A stretch of 10,121 bases of DNA, taken from an uncultured Candidatus Saccharibacteria bacterium. GTDB lineage: Bacteria; Patescibacteriota; Saccharimonadia; Saccharimonadales; Saccharimonadaceae. Position 1 is the first letter of the stretch; each line of letters starts with the position of its first letter. This document shows positions 1,316-9,383 of this stretch, piece after piece. Made by a program: the position numbers and the translations under genes. Under the pieces are notes generated by a model, which saw only the letters and a list, made by a program, of their open reading frames with translations, was not told where the DNA came from and ran no database searches. Where the stretch lies: the NCBI GenBank assembly GCA_938046495.1, contig CALIXG010000002.1, positions 1 to 10,121 of the forward strand. Reading direction: 5' to 3'.

Positions 1316-2635
1316 TTAGCGAAGTTTTTTACGGCTAGAAAGGTAAAGACCAGCAGTCGTAACGATAGAACCAAGACCGAAGGCTGAGCTAATTACGGTT
1401 TCAGGACCGGTTTTTGGCATTTCCTTTGGAAGTTCTTGTTTTGGTTTTTCTGGGTTTGGAGTAACTGGAGTTACTGGTTTTTCTGGGGTATTTTCACAGG
1501 TTTTCTTAACGTAAACATCTGCGCTACCTTGAACAGCGAAACCATTAGCCGAAGCCTTAGCCCAGTTGATCAAACGGTTATTACCACAAATAAGATTTTC
1601 ATCGACAACCTTAGCGGTGAAACGGACATAACCATCACCATTAATATTGTAGCCACCAATATTCAAACCACCATTAATAACGGTGTTGGAATCAGTAGTT
1701 AGACCATCTTTGTGTTTTGAGGTAAATAACTTAGTAGTACCATTAACATATTGCATGTTCTTTGGTAAAGAGTCGCTTACAACAACATCCTTAACAGCAG
1801 AAGCATTAAGGTTCTTGTAGTGAATCTGATATTCAACAGAGTCGCCAACCTTGGCATCGATAGAAGTTTTCCATTCCTTATCGCCAAGCATACGAACCTT
1901 CTTAGTAATAGAGGTGTTTTCGAAAACTGGTTTAACCTTAATAGTGACATAACCAGCATAGTTGTAACAACCAGGGAGGTTACCATCTAATTTGTCATAA
2001 CCAACTTTCACACCACCGTTTACGATAGAGTCAGATAGGGTAGTACCGTTCTTGAAAATGTTATTTTCAAAGATAGCAGAACCTTCAACATAGTCAAGGT
2101 AGAAAGCACGACCGTCAGCGCTCTTAAGATTCAAAGAATCCCAGTAACGAGATGGAGTTGCATTTGAGGCATTAATGAAGCCAGAAATACGAGCAGTCTT
2201 AGAAACCACAGTTGGTAAAGAAATTTCAGTGGTGACATCTTTAGCCACAGCGTTAACACCCTTAGGGTTGTTGTTGTGAACATAAAGACGAACTACGTAA
2301 GTTTTACCTTCTTCAACGTTAACATCACCGATGTTCCAAACGTTGTTTTTGCCATTGTTACCAGTAGCTTCGTCGCGAATACCCAAGAAGCTGCGTTCAT
2401 CGTTTAATGGCATAATGACACCGGCCTCTTTTTCCTTAGCGGAGATAGAAGAACCGTCGTCCTTGATAGAGTTCATGACGATCTTGTCGCCAAGTTTACC
2501 AGCGTTAATGTCAGCGATAGTGTAAGTAGCGCGACCGCCAGCGTTATCACCCCAACCAGATACAGTTGCAACAGTAGCAAGACCAGCAACAGTCACGGTA
2601 GCAGCGATGGATGCAAATTTGAATGCTTTTTTCAT
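1316..2635 (-). CDS. DUF11-type cell-surface protein with signal peptide and MPKTG sorting signal, 439 aa
   Basis: This is an exported, wall- or envelope-anchored adhesin-like protein. Residues 1 to about 26 (MKKAFKFASI core then AATVTVAGLATVATVSG) form a signal peptide. The next ~215 residues include the phrase YVVRLYVHNNNP, which I associate with surface proteins of Saccharibacteria. Residues ~242-380 resemble DUF11, a beta-sandwich repeat of surface proteins (KVGDSVEYQIHYKN, VVVSDSLPKNMQYVNGTT). A Pro/Lys/Glu linker follows, then MPKTG at 406-410, a hydrophobic span and the basic tail RKKLR. That is a sortase signal with Met in place of the usual Leu. Start choice: an in-frame TTG lies five codons upstream, but AAAGGAG sits 5 bases before this ATG at 2633-2635, so the ATG is preferred. 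A structured segment and terminator lie downstream. No sortase gene is in the window. Confidence 0.88.
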   Translation of the reverse strand: MKKAFKFASIAATVTVAGLATVATVSGWGDNAGGRATYTIADINAGKLGDKIVMNSIKDDGSSISAKEKEAGVIMPLNDERSFLGIRDEATGNNGKNNVWNIGDVNVEEGKTYVVRLYVHNNNPKGVNAVAKDVTTEISLPTVVSKTARISGFINASNATPSRYWDSLNLKSADGRAFYLDYVEGSAIFENNIFKNGTTLSDSIVNGGVKVGYDKLDGNLPGCYNYAGYVTIKVKPVFENTSITKKVRMLGDKEWKTSIDAKVGDSVEYQIHYKNLNASAVKDVVVSDSLPKNMQYVNGTTKLFTSKHKDGLTTDSNTVINGGLNIGGYNINGDGYVRFTAKVVDENLICGNNRLINWAKASANGFAVQGSADVYVKKTCENTPEKPVTPVTPNPEKPKQELPKEMPKTGPETVISSAFGLGSIVTTAGLYLSSRKKLR

Positions 2636-2663
2636 AAAAGCTCCTTTCAATTAAATTGTTCCT

Positions 2664-5744: not shown

Positions 5745-5874
5745 AGCGTTTTTAGTATGTCTGTTTCAATAGCAATAAAATAATCATAAGAGTTTTCGAT
5801 TTCTTAAAAGCAAATATGGGTGATTTATGGAGCTGAAAAAGTGGCTTGTATCGCGAGTGGATGGGTATAAAATT

Positions 5875-5883
5875 TGCTATAAT
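5875..5883 (+). promoter_or_regulatory. Extended -10 promoter for the GYG-repeat gene
   Basis: TGCTATAAT matches the extended -10 consensus. Transcription would begin near 5890, leaving a leader of only about 13 bases that contains GGAGGTGA directly before the ATG at 5903. In-frame ATGs at 5846 and 5882 fall upstream of or inside this box and so cannot be the starts of this transcript. Confidence 0.65.
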
Positions 5884-5902
5884 GGAAGAAAATGGAGGTG
5901 AA

Positions 5903-6454
5903 ATGGGCGGCATAATTGGCAGTTACGGACAAAGTGATTTAATGCGCGGTAATTCCGGTAGACAGCAAGAGGCAGGCGATTTATATCAGAGATCACGCGG
6001 GCAAAATGGCATGAAAGGTAGCTTTGACATTCGAGGTGGCAGTTCGGAGTCTAGCCAGAATAATGGCTTTGGTCGAGTGGAAAGCCAAGAGACCAATCAT
6101 GGTTATGGCTACGTAAAAAATCCCGAGGAATTAAAGCGTGGCTATGGGATGGTAAGTGAGAGTGAGAAAAACCGCGGATATGGCGTACTGAGTAGTGACG
6201 GCGAGAGACGTGGATATGGCGTGACTCCAGGCGATGGGTACAAACGCGGATACGGAAGACTTGGCGGAACTGAATCTAATAACGGAGTATCTGGCGTGCG
6301 ACGTGCGCCGAGTGAAGCTATGCAACGCGATAAGATGATGGGAATGGGTGGCGGGCCTGCCGGCGGTACTGGATTCTCGGGCGGCGCTGGTTTTTCTGGG
6401 GGCAGTAGACCTTCTGGCGGGAATATTAGGCCGGTGATTAAGCCTAATTTCTGA
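5903..6454 (+). CDS. Gly/Arg/Tyr-rich low-complexity protein with regular GYG repeats, 183 aa
   Basis: Not recognised. There is no signal peptide or membrane span, so it is probably cytoplasmic. The N-terminal third is rich in Gly, Ser, Gln and Arg. HGYG at residues 66-69 and RGYG at 79, 91, 103 and 115 then form a repeat with periods of 13, 12, 12 and 12. Each GYG is followed by a charged or polar spacer (KNPEELK, SESEKN, SSDGER, PGDGYK). The C-terminus is Gly-rich (GGTGFSGGAGFSGG) and ends IRPVIKPNF. It should be largely disordered. Alternating Arg/Tyr stickers and polar spacers resemble proteins that self-associate or bind nucleic acid, which is inference from composition only. The start is set by GGAGGTGA directly before the ATG and by the promoter position; a longer reading would add 19 residues. 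It is monocistronic and followed by a tRNA promoter. Confidence 0.82.
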   Translation: MGGIIGSYGQSDLMRGNSGRQQEAGDLYQRSRGQNGMKGSFDIRGGSSESSQNNGFGRVESQETNHGYGYVKNPEELKRGYGMVSESEKNRGYGVLSSDGERRGYGVTPGDGYKRGYGRLGGTESNNGVSGVRRAPSEAMQRDKMMGMGGGPAGGTGFSGGAGFSGGSRPSGGNIRPVIKPNF

Positions 6455-6481
6455 TTCTTGGGGAAAATTAATAATCTATAA

Positions 6482-6510
6482 TTGAAAAAACTAGTTGAGT
6501 TTGCTACAAT
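6482..6510 (+). promoter_or_regulatory. Promoter of the tRNA pair
   Basis: TTGAAA at 6482-6487, 17 bases, and TACAAT at 6505-6510 with an upstream TG form a good extended -10 promoter. Transcription should start near 6517, about 26 bases before the tRNA-His 5' end. Confidence 0.75.
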
Positions 6511-6542
6511 CTAGGAAGCGTACAGCGCATTTTTGAAAATTT

Positions 6543-6620
6543 GGTGGGTGTAGCTCAGTTGGTTAGAGCGTCTGATTGTGGTCCAGAAGGTCGTCGGTTC
6601 AATTCCGATCACCCACCCCA
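6543..6620 (+). tRNA. tRNA-His (GTG anticodon)
   Basis: A full cloverleaf is visible. The 7-bp acceptor stem GTGGGTG/CACCCAC is preceded by the His-specific extra G at position -1, opposite discriminator C73. The D arm is GCTC/GAGC. The anticodon loop TTGTGGT carries GTG. The variable loop has five bases, the T arm is GTCGG/CCGAT with loop TTCAATT, and CCA is encoded. The anticodon stem TCTGA/CCAGA has an A-C mismatch at its loop-closing pair (31-39). It is three bases upstream of tRNA-Gly and shares its promoter. Confidence 0.95.
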
Positions 6621-6623
6621 TTA

Positions 6624-6698
6624 GCGAGTGTAGTACAGCGGTTAGTATACAAGTTTTCCAAACTTGGGATGAGAGTTCGATTCTCTCCACTCGCACCA
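6624..6698 (+). tRNA. tRNA-Gly (TCC anticodon)
   Basis: The acceptor stem GCGAGTG/CACTCGC is perfect, with discriminator A and encoded CCA. The D arm is GTAC/GTAT, the anticodon stem CAAGT/ACTTG encloses TTTCCAA with anticodon TCC, and the T arm GAGAG/CTCTC has the standard TTCGATT loop. It would read GGA and other Gly codons by wobble. Its 3' end, ACTCGCACCAG, reappears unchanged 83 bases downstream inside a structured repeat. Confidence 0.95.
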
Positions 6699-6709
6699 GA
6701 ACAAAAAAG

Positions 6710-6736
6710 AAAGAACGGTTACGTTCTTTATTTTTT
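6710..6736 (+). terminator. Intrinsic terminator of the tRNA-His/tRNA-Gly transcript
   Basis: AAAGAACG and CGTTCTTT pair around a GTTA loop and are followed by A and six T. It lies 12 bases after the tRNA-Gly CCA end and is the first of three successive terminator hairpins. Confidence 0.85.
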
Positions 6737-6739
6737 GGT

Positions 6740-6790
6740 CGCCTGTACGAGAAAATTTGCGAAGCAAAGTTACTCGCACCAGGTTATAAA
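6740..6790 (+). repeat. Structured repeat, copy 1 (tRNA-minihelix-like)
   Basis: This 51-base unit aligns without gaps to 6824-6874. It can fold as outer stem CGAG/CTCG (6748-6751 with 6773-6776) and inner hairpin TTTGC-GAA-GCAAA (6756-6768), ending in an unpaired CACCA (6777-6781). Its segment ACTCGCACCAG is identical to the 3' end of the adjacent tRNA-Gly. A GTTATAAA block and a terminator hairpin follow. It may be a partial tRNA-Gly duplicate, an attachment-site remnant or a small RNA element. No coding capacity is evident. Confidence 0.7.
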
Positions 6791-6793
6791 AAG

Positions 6794-6818
6794 AAGAGCA
6801 TTTGTGCTCTTATTTTTT
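6794..6818 (+). terminator. Second terminator hairpin of the array
   Basis: AAGAGCA and TGCTCTT pair around TTTG and are followed by A and six T. The stem sequence differs from the first terminator while the architecture and spacing from the preceding CACCA are kept, as expected if the whole unit was duplicated and then diverged under selection for structure. Confidence 0.75.
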
Positions 6819-6823
6819 ATGAC

Positions 6824-6874
6824 CGCCCGTATGAGAAAGACCACGTAGTGGGATTACTTACATCAAGTTATAAA
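6824..6874 (+). repeat. Structured repeat, copy 2
   Basis: Gap-free counterpart of 6740-6790, offset by 84 bases. The outer stem is TGAG/CTTA (6832-6835 with 6857-6860) and the inner hairpin CCAC-GTA-GTGG (6841-6851), followed by CATCA and GTTATAAA. Most differences from copy 1 fall in the stems and preserve pairing. The perfect inverted repeat at 6872-6904 follows directly. Confidence 0.7.
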
Positions 6875-6904
6875 GAAAAAGAGGTCTTTGATCTCTTTTT
6901 CTTT
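6872..6904. terminator. Bidirectional terminator shared by the array and the tail-anchored gene
   Basis: AAAGAAAAAGAG and CTCTTTTTCTTT form a perfect 12-bp inverted repeat around a 9-base loop. On the plus strand it is the third terminator of the tRNA-linked array. On the minus strand it overlaps the stop codon of the 559-aa gene by two bases and would end that transcript. Confidence 0.75.
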
Positions 6905-8582
6905 ATTGGAAGAAGGCGAAATAGACGATGGCGCCGACCAGTGCTCCGAAGATACTCATGGCGATAAGCGCAAAAACTAATGAAAGATTGGTCTTACGCA
7001 TAGAAGGATCGTCAATAATGACAGCCTGCTGCTTGGCCTTGGCCTTTTCAGATTTATTTTTTGCATAAATAGTTTTGCGAGAATTATTTTCCTCTTCGAA
7101 AGTGTAATCCTTAATTTTAGAGCCCGGACCAAGTAGTTCGGAAGTAAAATCAGAGGAGATGAAATTCTCTTGTCCGTTAGCGAGTGGACGCTTTTGCACC
7201 TTATCAGTATTGATGAATGGGCTGCGGCCACCAAGGATGTAGTTGGAATTATTATTCGCAATGTCAGACTCAGCATAAAGCGAAGTGGATTTTGGCTTTT
7301 CGCTATCCGAGAAAGAATATGCTGAACGAGCTGGAGCGACCGTAGCTATAGGCTCATATTGATCATTCTGGTCAACCGAAGCAAAGGCAGAGTCAATAGA
7401 ATCTGGCGTGAGTGCGCTTCCCTGGTTTTTTGGCAAAGTAGAAATAGTATTTGAACGGCCGGCGGTCGGATAATACATGGTAGCTGATGGATTACCAGAG
7501 GTAGATGCCGAACTTTTACCGTGGAGTTGCTGATTATCAACAGAGTCAAAGAGCGCCTCGAGATCCTCGATTTCATCATAATTATCATAGTTTTGCAAGG
7601 CATCACGTACACTTGAAGAAACCAGGGTAGTTGGAACTGGAGCTTTAGCTGGGTAAGTCTGTTGAGATTCGGAATTTATTTCAGACTCAACTTTTTTAGC
7701 TGGACGAATGCGACCAAAAAGTGTGCGGCTTGGACTGGCGGTAATCTGAATACGAGAAACCGGCGAAGGCGCCTTAAATTTGGAAGCGACAGAAGCGGCG
7801 GAGGTAGCAGAATTAACAGCAGTAATAGCGGAACCCGCAAAAGAATTTGCAGCATTAGTAACCGAAATTGACCCAGCGGAAGCGGCGTTAGTAACTGAAA
7901 TTGCGGTAGGTGCAGGCTTCATCTTCGGAGCCAAGCTAGCACTGCCTACCGGAATTCGGCCGGTAGCACGTGGTAATTCACCAACCTTACGCTTGGCTAA
8001 TTCTTCCTTGGCGCGTTGTTTTTCTAACTCGTAGCGTCTCTGTTTGGCCTGGTTTTCACGTTCAATAGCCTGGCGTCGTAAAAGAGCTTCTTGTTCAGCC
8101 TGTTTTTTAGCGATAGCCTGCTGTTTTTCTTCGATTTCACGCTGTAATCTAAGTTCACGATTACGCAAAGATTCTTCGGCCTGAGAGCGAGCTAATTCCT
8201 GCTTCGCGGCCTCAATGCGGCGACGATTATAGTCCATGGTTTGATTTTGGAGTTCAATCTGGCGCTGAATTTCCTCACGACGTTCGCGCTCTTTTTTTGC
8301 CTGTTTTTTGCGCTCTAATTCACGTTCGGAAAGCGAATAAGTGTAAGCCGAAGTAAGCGTGCGAGTACGAGAGGGGCTAGCGATAGCGGAATTCGTAGCG
8401 GCAAAGGCAGAAGTACGATTGTTGGCACCGGAGGCACCGGCGAAAGCATTACGACCATTAAGACTGGTGGCTCCAGAATTCGTGGCAGAAGAAATAGTGC
8501 CAGCAGTTTTGCGGACAGGAGAAAAATCCATCATGCGACCTTTGACAGTGGTATTTTGGGTGTTCTTTCCTTGCATATTCAT
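6903..8582 (-). CDS. Coiled-coil protein with C-terminal membrane tail anchor, 559 aa
   Basis: Not recognised. Residues 1-80 are low-complexity Ser/Ala/Asn/Thr. Residues ~84-200 form a long, highly charged coiled coil (RELERKKQAKKERERREEIQ onwards) rich in Arg, Glu and Gln. Residues ~200-525 are Ala/Ser/Pro/Asn-rich and probably disordered, with a short tandem SVTNAASAGSISVTNAA and one acidic motif (YDEIEDLEALFDSVD). A basic stretch (KNKSEKAKAKQQ) precedes a single span at ~533-556 ending in FAFFQ. With no signal peptide, the bulk should lie in the cytoplasm, tethered to the membrane by its tail. That suggests a cytoskeletal, division or cell-pole scaffold, but no family motif supports this. 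The start is fixed by a TATAAT box 5 bases before the ATG; a second ATG two codons later is possible. It lies 24 bases after tpiA. Confidence 0.88.
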   Translation of the reverse strand: MNMQGKNTQNTTVKGRMMDFSPVRKTAGTISSATNSGATSLNGRNAFAGASGANNRTSAFAATNSAIASPSRTRTLTSAYTYSLSERELERKKQAKKERERREEIQRQIELQNQTMDYNRRRIEAAKQELARSQAEESLRNRELRLQREIEEKQQAIAKKQAEQEALLRRQAIERENQAKQRRYELEKQRAKEELAKRKVGELPRATGRIPVGSASLAPKMKPAPTAISVTNAASAGSISVTNAANSFAGSAITAVNSATSAASVASKFKAPSPVSRIQITASPSRTLFGRIRPAKKVESEINSESQQTYPAKAPVPTTLVSSSVRDALQNYDNYDEIEDLEALFDSVDNQQLHGKSSASTSGNPSATMYYPTAGRSNTISTLPKNQGSALTPDSIDSAFASVDQNDQYEPIATVAPARSAYSFSDSEKPKSTSLYAESDIANNNSNYILGGRSPFINTDKVQKRPLANGQENFISSDFTSELLGPGSKIKDYTFEEENNSRKTIYAKNKSEKAKAKQQAVIIDDPSMRKTNLSLVFALIAMSIFGALVGAIVYFAFFQ

Positions 8583-8606: not shown

Positions 8607-9383
8607 TTATTCACGAACCTTTTTTGCGGTCTCAATAATACTAACAAACGACTCAGAAACTAAACCTGCACTGCCAATAAGTAGACCATTTACGCCTGGC
8701 ACAGTGAGGTAGGCACCGGCATTATTCGGATTGACACTGCCACCAAAAAGTACGGGAATTTCAGCGACGGTTTCTTCCCCATAAATAGAGGTGAGTTGGT
8801 CGCGGATAATCTTCACGGCGTCAGCGATTTCATCTGGACTGGCGATATGTGCGGCCTTGGTACTAGAGATAGCCCAAACTGGTTCATAGGCGATAATACA
8901 TTTTTTAATATCGTCACTATCGATTTCGGAAAGACCACCAAAAATTTCATCACGCAAGACATCGATAGTTTCACCAAAATTACGTTGACTTTCAGTCTCA
9001 CCAACACAAAGAATTGGAGTAACGCCATTACGAATCGCAGCGGCGACCTTCTGAGAGATTTCACGGTTAGTTTCACCAAAAACAAAGCGGCGCTCGGAAT
9101 GACCGATGATAGCGTAAGAAACTAAACCGCGGAGCTGAGCGATAGAAACCTCACCAGTATAGGCACCAAAATCACGGTAATAAAAATTCTGAGCAGCAAG
9201 CTTAATCTTAGACTTGTTACGTTCAAGTTGAAGTGAAAGGCTAGAGAGCGAAGTAAAACTTGGAGCAATCACAATTTCAAGGCCACGACTAGGTTTGATT
9301 TTTTTAAGTAATTTCTGCAAAAAGATAGAAGACTCACCGATGGTCAGATTCATCTTCCAGTTGCCCACAATATATGTTTTCAT
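8607..9383 (-). CDS. tpiA: Triosephosphate isomerase, 258 aa
   Basis: Interconverts dihydroxyacetone phosphate and glyceraldehyde 3-phosphate in glycolysis, in the cytoplasm as a TIM-barrel dimer. Full length for the family. Visible signatures are GNWKMN (residues 7-12, with Asn8 and catalytic Lys10), GHSERR (94-99, catalytic His95), AYEPVWA (165-171, catalytic Glu167) and the phosphate-binding GGSVNPNNA (214-222) and GLLIGSA. The oddity is the mobile lid (loop 6). After PVWAI, most enzymes have GTGK, but here it is SSTK, so both glycines are replaced. All catalytic residues remain, so activity is expected. The start has no ribosome site; a TGCTATAAT box ends 6 bases upstream, implying a leaderless mRNA. 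It is divergent from a sugar-phosphate enzyme gene and is followed after 24 bases by the 559-aa gene. Confidence 0.97.
   Translation of the reverse strand: MKTYIVGNWKMNLTIGESSIFLQKLLKKIKPSRGLEIVIAPSFTSLSSLSLQLERNKSKIKLAAQNFYYRDFGAYTGEVSIAQLRGLVSYAIIGHSERRFVFGETNREISQKVAAAIRNGVTPILCVGETESQRNFGETIDVLRDEIFGGLSEIDSDDIKKCIIAYEPVWAISSTKAAHIASPDEIADAVKIIRDQLTSIYGEETVAEIPVLFGGSVNPNNAGAYLTVPGVNGLLIGSAGLVSESFVSIIETAKKVRE

Follow-up and report, generated by a model that had tools for sequence, protein, structure and literature searches.

Introduction

Why should a tRNA gene be followed by hairpins that end in copies of its own 3′ terminus, and what may be produced from them? The question is raised by a stretch of DNA of 10,121 nt (the window, by which the whole analysed stretch is meant) from an uncultured Candidatus Saccharibacteria bacterium (GCA_938046495.1, contig CALIXG010000002.1). 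An earlier note on it had described a tandem array of hairpin units and terminators behind the tRNA-Gly gene, and had proposed selection on RNA structure after duplication of a tRNA 3′ end, possibly giving small CCA-ended minihelix RNAs. Two E. coli systems offer themselves for comparison: the RtT repeats, an isolated curiosity of the tyrT operon, where the RNA is released from the tyrT transcript and connected with the stringent response, and the 3′ external transcribed spacer of leuZ, a stable RNA from a tRNA trailer that acts as a sponge of sRNAs. To our knowledge, RtT has no settled role. Should tail-copy hairpins prove to recur behind many tRNA genes in bacteria whose genomes are among the smallest, what they do could be tested in two ways, by a comparison of tRNAs that have them with tRNAs that lack them, and by RNA sequencing of a single Saccharibacterium.

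Materials and Methods

A tail copy was counted when the last 12 bases of a tRNA recurred with at most one mismatch, or its last 10 exactly, within 300 nt downstream of the gene. Copies inside another called tRNA gene were ignored, identical sequences of a tRNA plus 60 nt were collapsed to one, and tRNA genes with less than 150 nt of downstream sequence were dropped. Genomes of Saccharibacteria entered the survey on different grounds: G248 and G363 by their hits to the covariance model R1, G205 by its unit, G240, G327, G344 and G308 by a unit or unit-like repeat, and G266 and G280 by their long contigs; in G327, G308, G322, G275, G256 and G311 only the few best-scoring tRNA loci were sampled. 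R1 was built from nine units and searched against 394 genomes of the family group at E ≤ 0.01, with stricter filters at which weak matches are lost. Weak matches of 21–26 bits (G307 twice, G290, G349, G180 and G115) were left out of the unit counts; at two weakly matching loci, L095 and L098, the sampled stretch contains no tRNA. Also uncounted are the 27-nt repeats behind tRNA-Gly at locus L009, which end in CGCACCA and fall outside the tail-copy definition.

Array Behind tRNA-Gly

The window derives from an oral member of the Saccharibacteria, closely related to TM7 HOT-351 SAG3 (G001); the triosephosphate isomerase encoded at 8607-9383 is 98% identical to that at locus L001 of this genome. 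Downstream of tRNA-Gly, positions 6699-6907 (209 nt) are taken up by two hairpin units of 41 nt, set between three long terminator-like hairpins, and all these parts adjoin directly with zero gaps (Table 1).

Table 1. Arrangement of features around the tRNA-Gly array of the window
Feature	Position	Strand	Basis
Promoter-like site TTGAAA-17-TACAAT, presumed source of the tRNA transcript	6482..6510	+	Consensus scan
tRNA-His (GTG)	6544..6620	+	ARAGORN, Rfam
tRNA-Gly (TCC), CCA encoded, source of the tail copies	6624..6698	+	ARAGORN, Rfam
Terminator-like hairpin 1, spanning from the tRNA CCA to unit 1	6699..6740	+	Consensus scan, fold
Unit 1: GCCTGTACGAGAAA, inner hairpin, TTACTCGCACCA; tail copy 6772-6781	6741..6781	+	Alignment, fold
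Terminator-like hairpin 2, long, listed by the scan on both strands	6782..6824	+	Consensus scan, fold
Unit 2: GCCCGTATGAGAAA, inner hairpin, TTACTTACATCA as degenerate tail copy	6825..6865	+	Alignment, fold
Terminator-like hairpin 3, overlapping the end of the convergent ORF	6866..6907	+	Inverted repeat, fold
Convergent ORF, 559 aa, bounding the array and not part of it	6903..8582	-	ORF call

The earlier note had aligned two 51-base copies (6740-6790 and 6824-6874) without gaps, and the alignment holds, with 34 of 51 positions identical; two units are indeed present, but the natural unit is 41 nt long (6741-6781 and 6825-6865) and abuts the terminator hairpins. The reported substitutions are there as well: the inner hairpin, TTTGC/GCAAA in one copy and ACCAC/GTGGG in the other, differs by three two-sided pair changes (T-A to C-G twice, G-C to A-T), and in the outer stem one pair goes from C-G to T-A and one from G-C to G-T. 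To this should be added that the outermost pair of the inner hairpin, absent from that description, is A.G in unit 2. The stretch ACTCGCACCAG (6772-6782) repeats, as had been noticed, the 3′ end of tRNA-Gly together with one next base (6689-6699) at a spacing of 83. The tail copy of unit 1 matches the tRNA-Gly end exactly over 10 nt, that of unit 2 is degenerate, ACTTACATCA, with CATCA as its terminus, and the tail copies of the array are spaced by 83-84 bases. In the predicted fold, pairing reaches partly into the ACC of ACCA.

Three terminators had been proposed, of which the first two are listed by the consensus scan, while the third is a hairpin only (17 pairs in the fold), unlisted by the scan; counting both strands the scan gives four sites as compared with 0.5 expected in shuffled sequences. 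The promoter-like site of Table 1 is the sole one in 6400-7000 and is weak, one found against 0.9 expected in shuffles. Taken alone, the two window copies are weak evidence for a conserved structure, because they fold only modestly better than shuffled versions (z of -1.9 and -1.7; 9 and 11 of 200 shuffles fold as well), and the relatives have to supply the rest. Searched against Rfam at relaxed thresholds, the array gives matches (to sRNA, miRNA and other families) that all lie below the gathering scores and were taken as chance.

Three terminator-like hairpins in 209 nt, facing a convergent ORF, might suggest that the array serves only as a set of fail-safe terminators that halt transcription from the tRNA promoter, the units being spacers. 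We consider this distinctly unlikely, as termination needs neither identity with a tRNA tail nor a conserved left arm, and units are not commoner before convergent neighbours (16/45 vs 81/186, p = 0.40, among 231 tRNA genes with a called neighbour), which leaves a link of units with convergent genes unsupported. Nor does the array look like the remnant of mobile DNA. The 3′ ends of tRNA genes are attachment sites, and direct repeats of them, such as are present here, are the usual mark of integrase targets, so that repeated insertion and deletion of integrative elements could be imagined to have left these repeats as scars. Yet the tail copies, 83-84 bases apart, are too close to admit an integrase gene, and no integrase or element was found between the repeats, the intervening bases being taken up by the unit and a hairpin of the terminator-like kind. 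Over the array, forward-strand ORFs of at least 60 aa are limited to 6576-6848 and 6578-6967, both of which continue from the tRNA genes, and several species share this structured unit, which makes this already disfavoured origin very improbable.

As to the surrounding genes, the 559-aa convergent ORF has no Pfam match at E 0.001, and neither does the product of a 202-aa ORF located 5′ of the tRNAs (5846-6454, + strand) and carrying several GYG repeats find a match in Pfam. A 444-aa protein encoded at 1316-2650 (- strand) matches DUF11, and its C-terminus, with a PKTG motif, a hydrophobic stretch and a basic tail, is LPXTG-like by eye.

Relatives of the Unit and Covariation of Its Stems

A covariance-model search of related genomes had been proposed as a check, and it gave R1 matches in 11 of 394 family-group genomes, six of them convincing (G001, G205, G347, G363, G248 and G361) with the stems kept, so that duplication of a tRNA 3′ end with preservation of hairpin structure finds support in the units of related genomes. 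The suspected variability of array length is likewise seen between relatives, since one, two or four window-type units stand behind tRNA-Gly: a single unit in each of G205, G347 and G363, a pair in the window as well as at the orthologous site of G001, and four, accompanied by one T-arm-like unit, in a second array of G001 behind tRNA-Gly(CCC). The window-type unit adjoins tRNA-Gly in G205, G347, G363 and G248, in the last of which it comes second, preceded by a T-arm-like unit; G361 has a T-arm-like unit behind tRNA-Gly, and the window-type unit lies about 1 kb off. The latter (L094:1501-1537) is found 3′ of other sequence ending in CACCA.

The left arm GCCTGTACGAGAAA is identical at 14 of 14 positions between unit 1 of the window and G205, and at 13 of 14 in G347, G363, G248 and G361, while the terminator hairpins beside it differ in sequence among these genomes; the isomerase at L003, the inferred locus of G205, is 72% identical to that of the window. 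In the units of G347, G363, G248 and G361 the stem is CGGG/CCCG instead of CGAG/CTCG, and the tRNA-Gly of the same four genomes ends in CCCGCACCA and not in CTCGCACCA (acceptor CCCGC vs CTCGC). Thus the unit follows its local tRNA, CTCGC going with CGAG and CCCGC with CGGG, and the four CGGG rows probably represent one event. Over 13 units, drawn from the window and from the six genomes listed above, 94.2% of the cells of the 8-pair outer stem are paired as compared with 26-54% in slid versions, and the covariation score is equalled by 5 of 500 shuffles, a control that does not remove kinship. Rows that fail to pair include sister copies of window unit 2 and end units of the G001 arrays, and also ordinary units.

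Comparison with the orthologous array of G001 is instructive in another respect, as the order of parts is the same and hairpins 2 and 3 are recognisably kept, while units 1 and 2 have swapped their inner hairpins. Such a pattern could be expected from template switching, the strongest rival to a functional interpretation, though an unlikely one in our estimation, according to which replication errors at the tRNA 3′ end and its hairpins copy the tail in direct and inverted orientation, further switching keeps the arms in register, and a function of the product need not be assumed. Reverse-complement copies and multi-base paired changes arising in one event are described for this process (PMC8794818), and because both arms can be rewritten by it in a single step, the covariation need not be due to selection on RNA structure. 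The exchange of whole inner hairpins at orthologous sites with terminators 2 and 3 unmoved, as well as the patchy distribution of units, speaks for it. Template switching alone, however, leaves unexplained that 13-14 of the 14 bases of GCCTGTACGAGAAA are kept between distant genomes, and this left arm is without a close counterpart at the tRNA 5′ end (5/8 at best in the window). The array is also a good natural case for separating compensatory selection from template switching.

Tail Copies Behind Other tRNA Genes

Among the Saccharibacteria sequences sampled (up to L255), a copy of the gene's own tail was found downstream of 46 of 246 tRNA genes and upstream of 1 of 246, the pooled downstream rate being biased upward because several genomes were picked after a unit had been seen there; by the 12-base criterion alone 43 of 246 genes have a downstream copy, as compared with one upstream copy and two on the opposite strand. 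Within the stretches sampled the share varies from genome to genome: 13/36 in G280, 8/21 in G240, 6/19 in G248, 4/18 in G001, 3/32 in G266, 3/13 in G363, 2/7 in G344 and 1/22 in G205. Among loci picked by their isomerase alone, 5 of 62 tRNA genes carry tail copies; in 30 regions surrounding tRNA-Thr, taken from other family-group genomes, 0 of 72 tRNA genes do. The habit is lineage-bound within the family group. Conservation of a tRNA-Thr(UGU) unit throughout this group, which was considered when 5 of 7 genes carried it, had to be rejected after a wider sample (0/29). Outside it, two sets of loci mostly from other phyla yielded 2/28 and 0/48 and a sample of Paceibacteria 4/48; the positive control, E. 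coli tyrT, gave 2/2 downstream together with one upstream hit, which is due to the presence of two tandem tRNA-Tyr genes with a repeat between them. A literature search of few queries, with little coverage of subscription journals, returned nothing on tail-copy arrays in Saccharibacteria.

Several of the units share internal sequence. The core GCGTCCCAAGGGG, or a close variant, is present in units behind Thr, Met, Val, Cys and Asp genes of four genomes (L148, L174, L230 and L231 in G240, L194 in G266, L235 in G344 and L250 in G248), and the hairpin core looks like an exchangeable module. One might therefore regard the units as selfish palindromes residing at tRNA 3′ ends, whose core moves between tRNAs and whose arms are remade from the local tRNA; recurrence of GCGTCCCAAGGGG is joined here by that of ATGAGAAC..CGAAGC, common to Ser, Pro, Arg and Ala units. 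This reading seems hardly probable at all, as its mobilising enzyme is purely hypothetical and similar cores can arise by convergence, T-loop sequence being common to tRNAs.

Some further features of the sampled loci may be mentioned. All 246 distinct Saccharibacteria tRNA genes surveyed (L001-L255) encode CCA, compared with 15 of 48 in the Paceibacteria sample. Paceibacteria units (L287, L298 and L308) measure roughly 100-150 nt with tRNA tails at their end, and for Met, Lys(CTT) and Ile genes of this group no CCA stands at the called end of the tRNA, whose final letters are shared by the copies. Long structured inserts precede the tail copies at two other loci, where these end 118 nt 3′ of tRNA-Arg(CCT) (L075, Croceibacterium salegens) and 232 nt 3′ of tRNA-Trp (L045, bacterium).

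Structure of the Tail-Copy Units

The counted units span from 46 to 182 nt from CCA to CCA, spacer included. When all but the last 16 bases are shuffled, the mean fold energy over 53 units rises from -17.5 kcal/mol in the natural sequences to -13.0 (p = 2e-8). The part upstream of the copy is complementary to its own tail with a mean score of 12.1, exceeding both the shuffles (10.2, p = 2e-4) and the tails of other tRNAs (10.0, p = 7e-6); at the level of single units 12 of 53 pass p 0.05, and the window array does not. Pairing of the T-stem strand is slightly raised over these 53 units (0.60 vs 0.52 in shuffles, p = 0.025), that of the acceptor strand is not significantly so (0.57 vs 0.52, p = 0.095), and CCA is no freer than in shuffles. 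The acceptor minihelix with free CCA is thus statistically unsupported as a general rule, and the minihelix form envisaged in the earlier note, acceptor strand paired and CCA free, is clear in some units only (Ala and Arg(TCG) among them). The best-formed are two tRNA-Ala units of G280, each with a six-pair acceptor-like stem, a GCC linker, a T-arm-like hairpin and free ACCA.

These Ala units also bear on the origin of the left arm. Alanyl-tRNA synthetase needs the G3-U70 mark, which is absent from them: they have A3-U70, their tRNAs G3-U70, so that plain copying of the 5′ strand of the tRNA does not account for the left arm. Resemblance of left arms to the reverse complement of the tail, as here, again agrees with template switching; the T-rich runs that follow units as frequently as tRNA genes speak against it. 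Such a run occurs within 60 nt 3′ of 39 of 53 units and of 135 of 200 unit-less tRNA genes, the background being 1179 of 4000 random stretches. Derivation of the unit from a degenerate whole tRNA was also considered and is unsupported for the window: ARAGORN and Rfam recognise there only tRNA-His and tRNA-Gly, and the tRNA 5′ end is matched at 5/8 positions at best (4/8 in L001). Units overall match this end at 4-7 of 8 bases, seven being reached only in the Gly(GCC) unit of G280.

Likeness to RtT and Proposed Biogenesis

The closest parallel is offered by the RtT repeats of tyrT (RF00391). Common to both are tandem units placed directly behind a tRNA gene on the same strand, each ending in a copy of the 3′ end of its tRNA with CCA, the left part pairing with the copy. 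The window units differ in following tRNA-Gly, in being 41 nt long with a period of 83-84 nt as opposed to 178 in E. coli, and in alternating with terminator-like hairpins, none of which was noticed by eye between the E. coli repeats. The region 6680-6920 gives no match to the RtT model at E ≤ 10 (gathering score 45), and the window units are accordingly RtT-like in plan and non-members by test. In E. coli K-12, where the four repeats score 132.9-137.5 bits, annotated RttR starts after a gap of 7 nt from the CCA of tRNA-Tyr, shares 19 nt with this tRNA and has its 3′ terminus precisely at the tail copy's CCA, which makes it plausible by analogy that the units, too, could give CCA-ended RNAs. 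The leuZ spacer resembles the array in being a stable RNA from a tRNA trailer, with the difference that it is not a tail copy.

The reading we prefer, while granting it somewhat less than an even chance, is that of an RtT-like tandem array of tRNA-Gly 3′-end copies, transcribed by read-through, whose units are trimmed to CCA-ended hairpin RNAs. In each unit an imperfect hairpin has the tail copy as its right arm, and a terminator-like hairpin comes next. Promoter-like sites are absent from the array by the consensus scan, so that its transcription would depend on polymerase reading through the tRNA terminator. Enzymes of tRNA processing would then probably trim the units to small hairpin RNAs, with cutting at CCA being expected from the annotated end of E. 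coli RttR. By analogy, RNase P is a candidate for the 5′ cut, because hairpins composed of an acceptor stem, a T stem-loop and RCCA are described as cleaved by E. coli RNase P RNA (PMC11143913). The Ala units of G280 and the Arg(TCG) unit are like these model substrates in having an acceptor-like stem of 6-7 pairs, and by their predicted fold they share with them a short linker, a T-arm-like hairpin and free ACCA, unlike the window units, which pair partly into the ACC. The likeliest role would be local, namely to provide read-through transcripts with a second tRNA-like end at which they can be terminated and matured. In favour of the RtT-like reading count the two arrays of G001, the recurrence of the unit near tRNA-Gly in the other relatives, the agreement of its arms with the local tRNA, the excess of downstream over upstream tail copies, folding beyond that of shuffles, and the sub-threshold RtT matches of larger units given below. 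Against it count the negative RtT search of the window array, the fact that acceptor pairing and a free CCA are not general, the small share of units (12/53, the window's not included) with single complementarity to the tail, the ATCA end of window unit 2, the patchy spread (11/394 R1 matches and 0/72 tRNA genes elsewhere in the family group) and the consideration that strong terminators would leave little read-through RNA.

A wider reading, which we find doubtful, treats such units as a hitherto unrecognised class of CCA-ended hairpin RNAs from tRNA 3′ ends, tail mimics, each adapted to the tRNA it comes from, that might engage RNase P, trimming enzymes or nucleases that cut tRNA, with E. coli RtT as the one named member. 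It would extend to as many as one third of the tRNA genes sampled in certain Saccharibacteria, with sporadic occurrence in Paceibacteria and Proteobacteria.

As to the RtT-like reading itself, a search of 151 family-group genomes with the RtT model (E ≤ 0.05) gave four matches to larger units (29.2, 28.4, 22.5 and 21.1 bits), all below the cut-off. Each lies immediately 3′ of a tRNA gene (two of Ser, one each of Arg and Ala) and has the tail of that tRNA as its end, a location that is partly expected because the model contains a tRNA tail; the matches fall on units, not on the tRNA genes themselves. Those of 28.4 and 21.1 bits (cut-off 45) belong to the first two of three units of about 130 nt in the tRNA-Ser(GGA) array of G001, and the model aligns with both their left arm GGAUGAGAACC and their right end. 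In this array (L138:13219-13960) two kinds of terminator hairpin alternate, each occurring twice in nearly identical form, which suggests a duplication of two units.
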